Shown piece after piece: positions 1-11,246 of a stretch of 57,239 nt of DNA; the first letter of the stretch is position 1; each line of letters begins with the position of its first letter. Source of the stretch: Nitrospiraceae bacterium (GTDB lineage Bacteria > Nitrospirota > Thermodesulfovibrionia > Thermodesulfovibrionales > UBA1546); NCBI GenBank assembly GCA_003599795.1, contig QZJQ01000012.1, positions 1-57,239 of the forward strand. The letters run 5' to 3'. Below the pieces are notes generated by a model. It searched no databases. It was not told where the DNA came from and saw nothing but the letters and a program-made list of their open reading frames with translations. Made by a program: the position numbers and the translations under genes.

Positions 1-839
1 TTTCCGGCCCCCTTCTTTTTTGCTGAGTCTATAAGTTCTATAAGCTTATCAGCAGGCAGAGACCCTGTGAGCACAGAGCCGTCAGGCATGATAGATGTCG
101 GCGTGCCTGAAATTCCGAGGCTTGCCGCAAGTTTTATGTTCTTGTCAATAACATCTGTTTCACAAGAAGGCTGCGGAATAGATTTTTTCTCAAATACGCT
201 TTCAAGAAACGCTAACGACCCGCTGCATATTATGCTTTTAGATTTCCAGTAAGCATCAGGATGAAGCTTAGTAAGAGGGAACAGTTTGATATAAAAGGCA
301 ATATCCTTTCTTTTTTCTACGGCCTTCTTCATCTCCAGATGAAGTGTTCCGCAGAATGGTCAATCAGGGTCTGTAAAGACGATCACCTTGTTTGCAGCTT
401 TTTTATCTCCTAAAACAAGTGCATCTTTAAGCGGGATAAGTGAGCGGTTGATTCGCCTGTCTTTGTTAAGGGCGTCAAGCCGTTCTTTTGTCTTGTCAAT
501 TGCGGCATTTACTTCAATGATGCTGACATTGCCGCCTACTATATATTTTTTTGAAAAGTCCACATAGAAAAGCCCGCGCTGGCCTTTATTGTCTATAGCG
601 ACTTCCCACAGCCCCCTCACAGGGCTCATCTGCACCTTTAATATTTTTGCGTCAGGCGCCTTGATTTTTGCAAGAATATTGCGGACTTCATCCGTGCTGA
701 TGGTGTGGCACTTTGTGCAGTCCGTATCGCAGGAACCGGAGGCAAAAGCAGGACTTGGAGAGAAGAGCTGTCCGCCACTGGCGGGTTCGCCTGAGGCGAA
801 ATAGCTGATGGCTAAGACGAGCAATAATAAAATACGCAT
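1..839 (-). CDS. DsbC/DsbG-like periplasmic thiol-disulfide protein, probable selenoprotein (3' end outside window)
   Basis: Residues 1-34 look like a signal peptide. Residues 36-45 hold a Cys cluster ending in CTKCH, then a DsbC-type N-terminal dimerisation region (about 48-130; the LFYVDFSKKY stretch is typical). The thioredoxin fold begins with VFTDPD, and the codon at 362-360 is TGA where DsbC has the first Cys of its CxxC. The frame stays open to the window edge for 119 more codons and keeps PFC after the TGA, a Cys pair, and the cis-proline motif GTPT. The natural reading is a UxxC active site (U160, C163). A SECIS-like hairpin follows the TGA. DsbG-like selenoproteins are known from metagenomic surveys. 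The role would be disulfide isomerisation or reduction in the periplasm, perhaps for cytochrome maturation. The alternative, a nonsense pseudogene, fits poorly with the intact downstream frame. No sel genes are in the window. Confidence 0.85.
318..353 (-). promoter_or_regulatory. Bacterial SECIS-like stem-loop after in-frame TGA
   Basis: Reading the coding strand after TGA (362-360): a 5-bp lower stem TGCGG/CCGTA (353-349 with 322-318, one G-U), a 4x4 internal loop, a 7-bp perfect upper stem CTTCATC/GATGAAG (344-338 with 333-327), and a four-base loop TGGA (337-334). The loop begins 22 nt after the TGA and has G at its second position. This matches the known bacterial SECIS rules: upper stem, small loop with an early G, and about 16-37 nt from UGA. 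Confidence 0.72.
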
Positions 840-878: not shown

Positions 879-2364
<1,486 letters not shown>

Positions 2365-5475: not shown

Positions 5476-6690
5476 ATGGAAAAGTATAAATTCAACACAA
5501 TAGACGAGGCAATTGAAGACGTAGCAAAAGGCAAGATGATCATCCTTGTAGATGATGAAGACCGTGAAAACGAAGGCGACCTCTGCATGGCAGCGGAGAA
5601 GATAACACCCGAGGCAATTAACTTCATGGCTAAATACGGCAGAGGGCTCATATGCCTTTCGCTTACGCCTGAGCGGGTGGAAGAACTGAAGCTGCAGATG
5701 ATGACGGATGACAATACCTCGCCCTTTGGAACAGCGTTTACAGTTTCCATAGAGGCAAAGAAGGGCGTTACAACAGGCATATCAGCTTCTGACAGGGCCA
5801 TCACAATACTAACGGCAATAAATCCAAATACAAAGCCTGAAGATATTTCAAAGCCCGGACACGTATTCCCTTTGCGGGCAAAGCGCGGCGGAGTGCTCCA
5901 GAGGGCAGGCCAGACAGAAGGTTCAGTGGACCTGGTGAGGCTTGCCGGGCTTTATCCTGCCGGCGTTATCTGTGAGATTATGAATGATGACGGCACAATG
6001 GCAAGGGTGCCCCAGCTTATGGAATTCGCAAAGAAGCACAACATGAAAATAGTTACGGTAAAAGACCTCATTAAATACAGGATGAGGGCCGAGCTTTTTG
6101 TAAGGCGCATAGCAACGACAAAGCTGCCGACTGATTTCGGCGGCGATTTTACGGCGATTGCATACGCCAATGATATGGACAATAATGTGCATATTGCCCT
6201 TGTCAAAGGCGAGATAAAGCACGAAGATGAGGTGCTTGTGAGAGTGCATTCCGAATGCCTTACAGGCGATGTGTTCGGTTCAAAGAGATGCGACTGCGGG
6301 GAACAGCTTCACAATGCCATGGAACTCATAAGAAAAGAAGGCAAGGGTGTTGTCTTATATATGAGGCAGGAGGGAAGGGGCATCGGGCTGGTTAATAAAT
6401 TAAAGTCTTATGAGCTTCAGGATAAAGGGCTGGATACAGTTGAGGCAAACATAAAACTCGGATTCAAACCTGACCTCAGGGACTACGGCATAGGCGCGCA
6501 GATACTTGTGGACCTTGGAGTAAGAAAGATGAGGCTTATGACGAACAACCCGAAAAAGATTGTCGGGCTTGAAGGATACGGGCTCAAGGTAGTGGAAAGA
6601 GTTCCTGTAGAGACAAAGCCGCATGATAAAAATATCATTTATCTCAAGACAAAGAAAAAGAAATTAGGCCACATGCTTGACAGTGTGTAA
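5476..6690 (+). CDS. ribBA: Bifunctional 3,4-dihydroxy-2-butanone-4-phosphate synthase / GTP cyclohydrolase II
   Basis: Supplies both precursors of riboflavin. The N-terminal DHBP synthase domain (about 1-200) carries the acidic loop [11 protein letters not shown] and the tail motif GHVFPLRA. The C-terminal GTP cyclohydrolase II domain has the zinc site in [19 protein letters not shown] (Cys ligands), [10 protein letters not shown], and the YGIGAQIL segment. Total length of 404 aa is standard. Start ATG at 5476. It follows ribE after a word-repeat spacer and is convergent with accA. Confidence 0.97.
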
Positions 6691-6724
6691 CACATGGAAG
6701 CAGTAAAAAAGAAGCAGGATTAAT

Positions 6725-7702
6725 TTAACCTTTGCTTGCCTCAAAACTTCCGATCCGCCGGAGCCTTTTATACCTTTCGTCTATCAGCTTTCCGCTGCTT
6801 TTACTGCCGAGCTCTTCTATGGACTGCATTATTATCTCGGAAATATTTTTCGCAACTGCTTCCGGATTTCGCTGGGCGCCGCCGAGCGGCTCGGGTATTA
6901 TCCCGTCAATTATCTTAAATCCAAGAAGATCCTGAGCCGTAAGCTTGAGCGCCTCAGCAGACTTTGAGAACTCCTCCGGTGTAAGGTCCCCGTTTTTTTT
7001 CCATAATATCGCAGCGCAGCCTTCAGGTGATATAACTGAATAAACAGAATGCTCAAGCATATAAATCCTGTCCGCGACTCCCAAGGCAAGCGCCCCGCCG
7101 CTTCCGCCCTCGCCTATGACAACAGAGATTATGGGAGTTTTTATTTTTGACATTTCCATAAGATTTGTTGCTATTGCCTCTGATTGGCCTCTCTCTTCAG
7201 CGCCGATGCCGGGAAATGCTCCAGGCGTGTCAATAAATGTGATTATGGGCTTCTTAAATCTCTCCGCAAGTTTCATGAGCCTCAGAGCTTTTCTATAGCC
7301 CTCCGGCTGCGGCTGGCCGAAGTTCCTGTATATCCTTTCCTTGGTCCCTCTTCCCTTCTGGTGGCCTATAATCATTGCATGAACGCCGTTTATGGTTGCA
7401 AAACCTCCGGCTATGGCAGGGTCGTCGGAAAACCTTCTGTCGCCGTGAAGTTCCATGAAATCTTCTGAAAGCATATCTATATAGTCAAGGGTATACGGCC
7501 TGTCAGGATGCCTTGCAAGAAGCGTTTTCTGCCATGGTGTAAGATTGGAAAAGATTTCAGAGCGGAGTTCTTTTGCCTTTTTCTCAAGCTTTTTTACAGC
7601 TGAGGTTATATCCATGTCTTTCCTGTTAGAAAGACTTTTAAGCTCCTCTATCTTAAGCTCAAGCTCTTCTATGGGTTTTTCAAATTCAAGATAATATCTC
7701 AT
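6725..7702 (-). CDS. accA: Acetyl-CoA carboxylase carboxyltransferase subunit alpha
   Basis: Alpha half of the carboxyltransferase that moves the carboxyl group from biotin to acetyl-CoA, committing carbon to fatty acid synthesis; works with AccD, which is not in this window. The 325-aa protein has an N-terminal coiled segment and the crotonase-like core with [24 protein letters not shown] and the oxyanion-hole stretch [16 protein letters not shown]. Length is normal. It lies downstream of dnaE on the same strand, an order seen in many bacteria, but here a word-repeat spacer separates them. Confidence 0.96.
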
Positions 7703-7705
7703 AAA

Positions 7706-7768
7706 AAAGTTAGAAGTTGAAAGTTAAAAGTTGAAATCCTTAAACTCTTCACTCTTAACTTTTAACTT
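7706..7768. repeat. AGTTAAA word-repeat with inverted partner, reaching into the dnaE stop
   Basis: Left half is AAGTTGAAAGTTAAAAGTTGAA (written here in heptamers: AAGTTGA, AAGTTAA, AAGTTGA). The right half is its complement family (AACTCTT, CACTCTT, AACTTTT, AACTT). The dnaE stop codon (7764-7762) and the last residues lie in the right half, so the repeat defines the end of that gene. Confidence 0.6.
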
Positions 7769-10700
7769 GTTATTCTCACTGCTCCTTTCCCGAGTATTCC
7801 TTCAAGCCTGTTTATCAGCATGCTGCTCGGCTCTATCTGAAGCCCAGTGGCAATAAATACCTCTGAATCAGGCAAATCCATTTTAAAATATAAAGGGCAT
7901 TCCCCTGAACTGCCTGATAGCGCTTCTCTCAGATTTGCAAGGATTAAACTGTCAGCAATGGGATATTTTATACTAATCTCGCATTTTAAGCCATTTTTTG
8001 AAGCCATGTTGTCAATGCCGGACAGCTCTCTTAATAGGAGCTTAACGCCCTTTTCTGTCTTGTCAATGGTTCCCTTCGCTACTACAAGAGTGTCTTTCTT
8101 GAGAAGCCCAAGGCTGTTTCTGTAGATGTCAGTAAAGGCTATGGCTTCCACGCTGCCTTCCTCATCTTCTATTGTCAGATATGCCATTGTATCTGTCGTG
8201 CCCTTTTTTTGAAATTTCTTAATGGCTGCTATTACGCCTGCAATCTGGACGTCTTCCCTGTCAGACATGCCGCCTATCTCAGAGGTCTTTTTTATATTCA
8301 GGGCTGAGAGCCTTCCCCTGTATTTCATAAGCGGATGGCCGGTTATATAAAAACCAAGGGCATCCTTCTCATTTTTAAGCAGTTCTGCCTCATCCCATTC
8401 CTCTGCTGAAATCTCAGGTTCAAATTGTTCATCGCCAAAAATGTTTTGCTGGCCGTTATGCCTTGAACCCTTGCCGTTGCTGCTCAAAATATCATTGACA
8501 GCGCGCATTGCAGTCCCTCTTGAAGTGCCTATAGAGTCAAAGGCGCCTGCCTTCACAAGGCTTTCAAGGACTTTCTTGTTAACCTTCCGCGAATCAACTC
8601 TTTGGATGAGGTCTGCAATGGATTCAAACGGCCCGCCGCTTTCCCGGACTTCAAGGACAGACTCTATTGCCGCTCCGCCTACGCCCTTTACAGCCTCAAG
8701 CCCAAAACGTATTGAGTTGCCTATAACCCTGAACTCCCGTCCGGAAAGGTTTATATCAGGCGGAAGCATCTCAATCTTCATGTTCCTGCATTCATTGATT
8801 GACTTTACTATCCTGTCAGTGTCGTTTACGTCAAGACTGAGAGTGGCGGCCATAAACTCAACCGGATAATGCGCCTTAAGATATGCTGTCTGGTACGCTA
8901 TGAACGCATAGGCAGCTGAATGTGATTTGTTAAAGCCGTACTGGGCAAAGGGTTCCATTTTTTCAAAAAGCTTTGAGGCCTTTTTTTCAGGGATGCCGTT
9001 TTTAACTGCTCCGCTGACGAAATTCTCTTTCTGTTTCATCATTTCTTCAATCTTCTTTTTCCCCATGGCCCGCCTGAGGATGTCTGCCTGCCCCATGCTG
9101 AAATTCGCAATCTTATTTGCTATCATCATTACCTGCTCTTGGTACAGGATAATCCCGTAGGTCTCATCAAGGATCTCCTTAAGCTGCGGCAGGACATAGC
9201 TAATCTTTTTTTCGCCCTTTTTACATTTGATGAAGTCATCTATCCATGCCATTGGCCCGGGCCGGTAAAGCGCAACAAGAGCGATGAGGTCCTCAAACCT
9301 GCTGGGCTGCATCCTTATGAGGATGTCTCTCATCCCCTCGCTTTCAAGCTGGAATACGCCTGTTGTATGGCTTGAGCTGAGCAGATCATAAGTCTTTTTA
9401 TCATTGAACGGTATGTCATTGAGATTAAGGTCTCCGCCTGCCTGCTTGATATACCCCAATGTCTTCTCAATGACCGTAAGAGTTTTCAGCCCGAGGAAAT
9501 CAAATTTAAGGAGCCCGATTTTTTCCAGGGACTCCATATCAAACTGTGTCACAATGCTTTCGTCAGCCGGGTTTCTGTAAAGAGGAGTATAATCAGTCAA
9601 AGGCGCCGGCGAAATTACCACGCCTGCGGCGTGCGTAGACGCGTGCCTGTTAAGCCCCTCAAGCCTTACAGCGATATCGAGCAGCTTTTTAACGTTTTCA
9701 TCAGAGTCATATGCCTGCTTAAGCTGGGGTTCAAGCCTTAAGGCCTCTTCAATTGTTATCTTTAACTGGTTAGGAACGAGCTTTGCAATTTTATCAACCT
9801 CAGCATATGGTATATCCATCGCGCGGCCCACATCCCTTATAGCAGCTTTTGCGGCCATTGTGCCGAATGTTATTATCTGAGCAACATGGTCCTTCCCGTA
9901 TTTGCCTGATACATATGATATTACGTCTCCTCTTCTGTCCTGACAGAAATCAACATCAATATCAGGCATGCTTATCCTTTCCGGGTTCAGAAACCTCTCA
10001 AAGAGAAGGCCGTATTTAAGGGGGTCTATCTCTGTTATGTCAAGGCAGTAAGAGACAAGGCTTCCGGCAGCTGATCCCCTTCCGGGCCCAACGGGTATGC
10101 TGTTGCTTCTTGCATAACTTATGAAATCCCAAACAATCAGGAAGTAAGAGGCATAGCCCATTTTCTTTATGACATTCAATTCCGTCTGAAGCCTTTCCCT
10201 GTAAAGCGGAGGAGCATCTTTCCCGATTTTCCTTTCAAGGCCGGCAACTGCAAGTTTTGAAAGCAAGAAAGAGGGGTCTTCGCCGCCCTCGGTATTATAT
10301 TTTGGAAGAAGGATATCCCCGAGTTTGAAATCAACGTTGCACCTTTCGGCAATGGTTATTGTATTTTTAACAGCCTCCGGAACATCTTTAAAGATTTCTT
10401 TCATCTCTGAAGGCGATTTGAGATAAAATTCATCGGAACTGAATTTCATGCGGTTGAGGTCTTTAAGTGTTTTGCCTGTCTGGATGCAGAGGAGAACTTC
10501 GTGGGCCTTTGCATCGCTTTTTCTGAGATAATGGGAATCATTTGTTGCAACAAGGCCGATATGGAGTTCCTGCGAAAGTTCTATAAGCTGTTTGTTTACC
10601 TCTATTTGTTCAGGCAAGCCGTTTGCCTGTATCTCCAGATAAAAATTATCAGGGCCGAGTATGTGTTTATAAGCAAGCGCTTTTTCCCTGGCCCTGTCAA

Positions 10701-11166
10701 GCATTCCTTTCTGCAAATAATAGGGTATTTCACCCTTGAGGCAGGCTGAAAGGCCTATAAGCCCTCCGCTGTACTGCTCAAGAAGATCCATGTCTATCCG
10801 CGGCTTGTAATAGAATCCTTCAAGATAGGCCATTGTAACCAATGTGACAAGGTTTTTATAGCCTGCATTATCTTTTGCAAGCAGTATGAGGTGAAAAGAT
10901 TTCTCATCGTTTTCCGCGCTGCTCTTGTCCAAGCGGCTTCCCGGAGAGACATAAAGTTCGCATCCGATTACAGGCTTGATGCCTGCTTTTGAAACCTTCT
11001 TATAAAAATCTACTGCTGCAAAGAGATTGCCGTGATCTGTTACGGCAAGGGCAGGCAGCTTGAACTGTTTTGCCTGTTCAACAAGCTCATTTATCCTTAT
11101 TGCGCCGTCTAAGAGGCTGTATTCAGTGTGGAGGTGCAAGGGGACATAGTCTGAATGTAAATGCAT
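7762..11166 (-). CDS. dnaE: DNA polymerase III subunit alpha
   Basis: Replicative DNA polymerase catalytic subunit. The PHP domain (about 1-280) opens with YVPLHLHTEYSLLDG and TDHGNLF. The polymerase core has VGPGRGSAAGSLVSY and the aspartate triad region with PDIDVDFCQDRR. A helix-hairpin-helix region (about 760-830) and an OB-fold (about 960-1050) follow. At 1134 aa it is DnaE1-type, not the shorter error-prone ImuC. The C-terminus ends in VRITS within a word-repeat, so the final residues were probably reshaped by it. Divergent from purF with an 80-nt shared promoter region. Confidence 0.97.
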   Translation of the reverse strand: MHLHSDYVPLHLHTEYSLLDGAIRINELVEQAKQFKLPALAVTDHGNLFAAVDFYKKVSKAGIKPVIGCELYVSPGSRLDKSSAENDEKSFHLILLAKDNAGYKNLVTLVTMAYLEGFYYKPRIDMDLLEQYSGGLIGLSACLKGEIPYYLQKGMLDRAREKALAYKHILGPDNFYLEIQANGLPEQIEVNKQLIELSQELHIGLVATNDSHYLRKSDAKAHEVLLCIQTGKTLKDLNRMKFSSDEFYLKSPSEMKEIFKDVPEAVKNTITIAERCNVDFKLGDILLPKYNTEGGEDPSFLLSKLAVAGLERKIGKDAPPLYRERLQTELNVIKKMGYASYFLIVWDFISYARSNSIPVGPGRGSAAGSLVSYCLDITEIDPLKYGLLFERFLNPERISMPDIDVDFCQDRRGDVISYVSGKYGKDHVAQIITFGTMAAKAAIRDVGRAMDIPYAEVDKIAKLVPNQLKITIEEALRLEPQLKQAYDSDENVKKLLDIAVRLEGLNRHASTHAAGVVISPAPLTDYTPLYRNPADESIVTQFDMESLEKIGLLKFDFLGLKTLTVIEKTLGYIKQAGGDLNLNDIPFNDKKTYDLLSSSHTTGVFQLESEGMRDILIRMQPSRFEDLIALVALYRPGPMAWIDDFIKCKKGEKKISYVLPQLKEILDETYGIILYQEQVMMIANKIANFSMGQADILRRAMGKKKIEEMMKQKENFVSGAVKNGIPEKKASKLFEKMEPFAQYGFNKSHSAAYAFIAYQTAYLKAHYPVEFMAATLSLDVNDTDRIVKSINECRNMKIEMLPPDINLSGREFRVIGNSIRFGLEAVKGVGGAAIESVLEVRESGGPFESIADLIQRVDSRKVNKKVLESLVKAGAFDSIGTSRGTAMRAVNDILSSNGKGSRHNGQQNIFGDEQFEPEISAEEWDEAELLKNEKDALGFYITGHPLMKYRGRLSALNIKKTSEIGGMSDREDVQIAGVIAAIKKFQKKGTTDTMAYLTIEDEEGSVEAIAFTDIYRNSLGLLKKDTLVVAKGTIDKTEKGVKLLLRELSGIDNMASKNGLKCEISIKYPIADSLILANLREALSGSSGECPLYFKMDLPDSEVFIATGLQIEPSSMLINRLEGILGKGAVRITS

Positions 11167-11246
11167 AGAAAATATTAACTATATGAAAGCTGCCAAGTCA
11201 ACCTTGTAAGAACACTGTCTTCCCATATATGTTAAAATAAAAAACA

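Follow-up and report, generated by a model that had tools for sequence, protein, structure and literature searches.

The first 839 nt of the window, the 57,239-nt stretch of DNA analyzed here, hold a gene for a DsbC-like protein on the minus strand. Its 3′ end is lost at the contig edge (base 1), where a few C-terminal residues and the stop codon are absent. Between the ATG at 839 and the contig edge, the sole in-frame stop is the TGA at 362-360. As the preliminary description had noted from the reading frame, this codon stands at the first Cys of the active site (FTDPD-TGA-PFC) and is followed by 119 open codons that include GTPT (residues 245-248; T246, P247). Ordinary gene calling would give a product of 159 amino acids (ORF 360..839), the same truncation at residue 159 that the description had foreseen. 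The locus carries the following features.

1..839, minus strand: predicted DsbC-like selenoprotein gene, 279 codons from the ATG at 839, cut short by the contig end; likely signal peptide, followed by a DsbC_N-like domain and a thioredoxin domain
705..731, minus strand: CxxxCxxCH motif (C37, C41, C44, H45), a possible c-type haem site, from the homolog alignment
360..362, minus strand: in-frame TGA read as selenocysteine (Sec; residue 160), position 1 of UPFC, from the homolog alignment
315..356, minus strand: full two-stem structure with an 8-bp lower stem, from the fold and an 86-gene comparison; the complete lower stem is specific to the query gene
327..344, minus strand: SECIS core hairpin CTTCATC-TGGA-GATGAAG, from the fold, a pattern search, and 43 distinct Sec windows
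323..380, minus strand: putative conversion tract and longest paralog-like block, with 57/58 identity to L044, the Sec paralog in genome G005
324-363, minus strand: minimal tract as delimited by query-private changes
192..227, minus strand: second diverged patch, residues 205-216 (CSGSLAFLESVF), from diagnostic sites and homolog comparison
1111..2364, plus strand: murA, a divergent neighbor conserved beside the Cys orthologs and not part of the selenoprotein

The query protein matched the Pfam families PF13098 (54.9 bits; cut-off, 27) and PF10411 (DsbC_N; 27.9 bits; cut-off, 25). By sequence, the nearest solved full-length protein was Escherichia coli DsbC (1eej; E value, 1.2e−14; residues 65-277). 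Structure prediction was poor with 13 close sequences (pLDDT, 60) and good with 75 (mean pLDDT, 91.8), and the best fold match of the predicted structure was again DsbC. The whole-length TM-score of this predicted model against DsbC was only ∼0.45 (rmsd near 9 Å), which probably reflects a difference at the hinge, and its catalytic domain alone could be fitted to Neisseria 3gv1 at 2.4 Å. The earlier assignment as DsbC-like stands at the level of both Pfam domain and fold. The layout of DsbC is present, with a DsbC_N domain and a thioredoxin domain that carries the CxxC position and the cis-Pro, and Sec replaces the first Cys. The query shares with E. coli DsbC this two-domain arrangement and two further conserved Cys (C205, C226); however, it is only 24-25% identical to that protein and differs from it in the Sec residue and in the N-terminal CxxxCxxCH. 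As the score against the NCBIfam DsbC equivalog model fell below its cut-off (66.5 versus 215 bits), the name DsbC-like rather than DsbC is used here. From its sequence, the product is best explained as a DsbC-like thiol-disulfide protein that is exported and carries selenocysteine in its UxxC active site, and it would act as a periplasmic disulfide isomerase or reductase.

Directly behind the signal peptide lies CDTDCTKCH, the CxxxCxxCH motif listed above. It is found in most homologs, is missing from some members (L073, L083, L091, and L092), and is accompanied in the family by paralogs with CxxCH alone. The motif could possibly make this a haem-c-bearing disulfide protein. A two-codon insertion is also seen near residues 104-105.

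The homolog set comprised 86 genes from the query's own genome (G000) and 60 others of the order Thermodesulfovibrionales (Nitrospirota); the named relatives are Nitrospirota/Thermodesulfovibrionales MAGs, e.g., GWF2_44_13. At the query's TGA codon, 47 of these genes had TGA and 39 had Cys (TGC/TGT), and the Cys homologs align across the TGA at this same codon, in keeping with the Sec/Cys exchange expected in the preliminary description. In-frame TGAs were confined to one codon column throughout the 86 genes, apart from one near the C-terminal end of L019 that is probably its true stop, and no second internal Sec was identified in the translated homologous genes. Extra stops in some homologs (two TGAs, or a TGA with a TAG or TAA) were mostly terminal stops or belonged to a pseudogene. 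Downstream of the TGA, dN/dS was 0.11 to 0.14 between the query and four Cys orthologs and 0.12 to 0.17 among the Cys orthologs of the genus; the frame behind the TGA has thus not decayed, and its codons are, by this comparison, under purifying selection.

A hairpin with a 7-bp upper stem starts 15 nt past the TGA and places its TGGA tetraloop 22 nt past it. The fold of 365-310, consistent with the two-part stem-loop described previously, gave an 8-bp lower and a 7-bp upper stem at −19.8 kcal/mol (z, −4.9), and none of 200 shuffled sequences was equally stable. Like bacterial SECIS elements, the structure is stable, has a G-bearing apical loop, and lies immediately downstream of the UGA. The pattern TGA-N15-CTTCATCNGGAGATGAAG occurred 39 times in 34 of the 61 genomes, at sites matching the homolog matches of the family, and 0 times in the reversed control. 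Across the Sec genes, the codons 15 nt past the TGA read CTT CAT CNG GAG ATG AAG with almost no exceptions, whereas Cys genes encode this peptide with varied codons and nearly all have lost the hairpin core. Among the 43 distinct Sec windows, six of the seven stem pairs never vary, the seventh changes from T-A to C-G in three, and nearly all windows have a loop of the form N-GG-A or N-GG-T. The query structure had the lowest energy of all 86 genes because the query alone completes the 8-bp lower stem, through bases (GCC GTA) that are private to it. A Rfam scan of the window returned nothing above any gathering score, so the SECIS call rests on fold and conservation.

Hairpin conservation and purifying selection behind the TGA make a pseudogene or a plain stop unlikely, and on these features and the machinery genes described below the gene is very probably a real selenoprotein, as the preliminary description had proposed, in which Sec would be incorporated at the UGA. 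A nonsense mutation, a pseudogene, or an assembly error, with the TGA being a stop or two genes joined in a chimeric sequence, appears highly improbable. The gene's location at the end of a contig, the incompleteness of the assembly, the odd divergence of residues 205-216, and the presence of one pseudogene among the family's paralogs (in G012) could be taken in its favor, but the post-TGA dN/dS equals that of intact orthologs, and the TGA is accompanied by a full SECIS that the orthologs are without.

Residues 205-216 (CSGSLAFLESVF) depart from the otherwise conserved CxKSLxLLEDNF, with 18 private changes in 36 nt. This patch also contains six consecutive paralog-type diagnostic sites (p, 2e−5). 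It is not claimed as another conversion, as its best homolog match reached only 67%.

The preliminary description had made Sec decoding depend on the presence of sel genes. Genome G000 (1.40 Mb, 74.7% complete) contains a tRNA-Sec (66.6 bits; cut-off, 47; anticodon TCA by ARAGORN), selB (C10:14877-16727), and selD, which itself has an in-frame TGA (active site, CAG-U-AAK). This part of the expectation is borne out; selA was not found in the 74.7%-complete assembly. Most of the neighborhood in which selA lies in G001 was not found there either, and selA was present in 26 of the 26 relatives that are at least 90% complete; the gap is read here as assembly incompleteness. By analogy with the bacterial system, SelB on the hairpin just downstream would bring Sec-tRNA-Sec to the UGA.

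The divergent murA gene also adjoins the Cys orthologs, and this fixes the orthology of the locus. All 13 orthologs, five in the genus and eight in the family's other genera, have Cys (TGC or TGT). In a DNA tree built with codons 154-182 masked, the query fell within the Cys clade of the genus (100/100) and grouped with L006 and L008 (100/96), and the protein tree placed it in a family clade of 13 rows, 12 of them Cys (100/95). A topology that kept the query apart from the family's Cys genes was rejected (dlnL, 63; p-AU, 0.00018). A topology with the five genus Cys genes as one clade was not rejected (p-AU, 0.18), so the exact place of the query within the genus is tentative.

Retention of an ancestral Sec in the query, with repeated loss in all the Cys orthologs, was considered in the light of these trees. 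Sec orthologs do occur in other families of the order, and these outgroup genes (L017, L018, L019, L021, and L022) make it probable that Sec already existed at deeper nodes. However, the query nests within the family's 13 Cys genes, so that Sec would have to be lost many times in parallel, and the Cys genes of the genus have nearly identical derived codons at the site (HEEIKK). Under retention, the loop should moreover read CAG, as in the Sec orthologs, whereas the query has CTG. Taken together, retention is very doubtful, and the lineage at the query locus would formerly have contained Cys.

The protein tree of this family implies at least 14 Sec/Cys changes, and Sec/Cys paralog pairs within one genome are frequent. 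In G010 (C64), 4 kb separates a Cys member from a Sec paralog, and in G027 (C15), the two are nearly adjacent, arrangements that would favor recombination between them. Two genes, L050 (the paralog of G004, a member of the query's genus; TGC) and L030 (G024), retain an intact SECIS hairpin downstream of a Cys codon and are read here as recent Sec-to-Cys losses, the reverse of the change in the query. The Sec paralog of G012, L084 (G012:C44), has in-frame TAA and TAG codons and is apparently a decaying gene. Genome G019 carries three Sec family members, and L088 (G019:C1:2088053-2088088) reads U-P-F-S, in which Sec is kept and the second active-site Cys is lost (UxxS).

Overall, the query and the genus's Sec paralog share about 52% amino-acid identity. 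In 12-codon windows outside the tract at 323..380, the query was mostly 75 to 97% identical to the genus orthologs and about 30 to 65% to the Sec paralog. This relationship was inverted at codons 157-172, where identity was 61 to 78% to orthologs and 86 to 97% to paralogs. Across most of the gene, ortholog identity was 83 to 97%, dropping to 61 to 72% at codons 161-172, while paralog identity rose there from about 55% to 89 to 97%. Residues 159-179 comprised nine consecutive paralog-type diagnostic sites (of 184), an arrangement seen in 0 of 100,000 permutations, a value that is descriptive because the limits of the tract were set with the alignment in view. Query-private changes numbered 12 in 60 nt, compared with about 4 expected from the upstream rate (21 in 351 nt). 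Ten of the 12 went to the paralog base, namely, the TGA itself, five changes forced by the hairpin, and four that were unforced (codon 159 GAT, codon 161 CCA, the loop T, and codon 172 AAG). The loop T (CTG) matches that in the genus's paralogs, while all outgroup Sec orthologs have CAG. The sequence is therefore paralog-like inside the tract and ortholog-like on both flanks at an orthologous locus, the block pattern of gene conversion. Within the tract, base 346 (codon 165 ACA) matched no paralog, and the same was true of codons 173-174. In the tract-only tree, grouping of the query with Cys orthologs was not significantly rejected for this short tract (51 columns; dlnL, 13.6; p-AU, 0.083), and the query was not placed firmly inside the genus paralogs.

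For an assembly chimera, k-mers would have to be shared on either side of the tract, and these reached up to 26 nt on the left and at most 14 to 17 on the right; the tract also differs from every known paralog. The main rival of cassette transfer is de novo convergence, in which TGC mutated to TGA and selected point mutations built the SECIS, which converged on the family hairpin because SelB demands it. Selection could draw a sequence toward the hairpin core, which hardly varies among Sec genes; the private lower stem of the query (GCC GTA) must in any case come from point mutation. A shared SECIS constraint could also mimic part of the tract's paralog identity. Yet this route requires about 10 paralog-matching changes in 42 nt, four of them unneeded by the hairpin, and a loop base of the genus paralogs' type rather than that of the Sec orthologs. 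In addition, the stem tolerates a compensatory pair (T-A to C-G), so that exact identity is not forced. De novo convergence is accordingly considered unlikely.

It thus appears, with good confidence, that a Cys gene regained Sec through a short gene conversion of a cassette comprising the UGA and the SECIS. About 40 to 58 nt, covering the UGA, the second active-site Cys, and the SECIS, would have been overwritten by the same stretch of a Sec paralog, with the gene's own flanks kept. The most likely route would be homologous strand exchange seeded in the longest ortholog-paralog match, which spans up to 26 nt. This exact 26-nt match, the longest between the genus orthologs and the G005 paralog, ends at the TGA, and its length comes close to the minimum commonly cited for RecBCD-dependent recombination in E. 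coli. Later, two more private changes would have completed the lower stem and given the most stable SECIS of the family. As a whole, Sec in a DsbC-like protein, regained from a paralog cassette, is the best explanation of the locus and a likely one.

The putative donor paralog was not found in the 75%-complete G000 assembly, in which the whole region around it is missing, and a paralog of the same genome is therefore a candidate source. In G001, the Sec paralog lies between the Nif3-like and GGDEF genes, ∼10 kb past the point where the syntenic G000 contig C10 ceases to match. A segment of the window itself (6741-11205) is 90 to 91% identical to a segment ∼5 kb from the Sec paralog in both G001 and G005. 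Here, this paralog-near segment follows ribBA, near the query, and its junction (6690-6741) represents either a rearrangement or an assembly join beside the query locus.

Reports of UxxC thiol-disulfide selenoproteins, among them a DsbG-like one, date back to the Sargasso Sea survey (PMC1088965), and a 2026 review of the prokaryotic selenoproteome includes both a PF13098 "thiol:disulfide interchange protein" and the DsbG-like NF041057 (PMC13188914). The query resembles the PF13098 UxxC family of that review (PMC13188914), likened here by Pfam and description, in having the same Pfam domain, the UxxC motif, and a bacterial SECIS just downstream; it differs in adding a DsbC_N-like domain and CxxxCxxCH and in having regained Sec inside a Cys clade. 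The DsbG-like selenoprotein (PMC1088965; NF041057) is likewise an exported UxxC thioredoxin-fold protein with a bacterial SECIS, but the query scores higher on the DsbC than on the DsbG model (66.5 and 29.8 bits, respectively). The NF041057 model gave no match for the query, and the paralog L044 reached 12.1 bits against a cut-off of 190. As a selenoprotein, the query therefore belongs to an already known kind, and the noteworthy part is the probable regain of Sec by cassette transfer.

Phylogenetic analysis by Zhang et al. in 2006 inferred 33 events of bacterial Cys-to-Sec change (PMC1794560), and the review attributes such changes to bacterial SECIS elements being plastic and easily acquired de novo (PMC13188914). 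The conversions of Zhang et al. also involve a Sec gene nested in Cys genes, a Sec-decoding organism, and a UxxC redox family (PMC1794560). In that study, SECIS phylogenies were consistent with selenoprotein phylogenies (PMC1794560), whereas in the query the SECIS and the gene phylogeny disagree, which points to import of the codon and the SECIS together. In the literature open without subscription, no report was found of SECIS transfer by gene conversion or of a SECIS matching a paralog against the gene tree.

A change from Cys to Sec looks difficult, since the protein is truncated at a UGA that lacks a working SECIS, and comparative work infers many such changes in bacteria while leaving the intermediate unexplained. 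It is fairly likely that the UGA and SECIS form a portable cassette of ∼40 to 60 nt and that ectopic recombination between paralogs can switch Cys to Sec in one step. If so, a cassette copied from a paralog would remove the need for the intermediate, and Sec could be regained after its loss without a SECIS evolving anew. Given the Sec/Cys changes and paralog pairs of this family, the idea would be directly testable in sister species.
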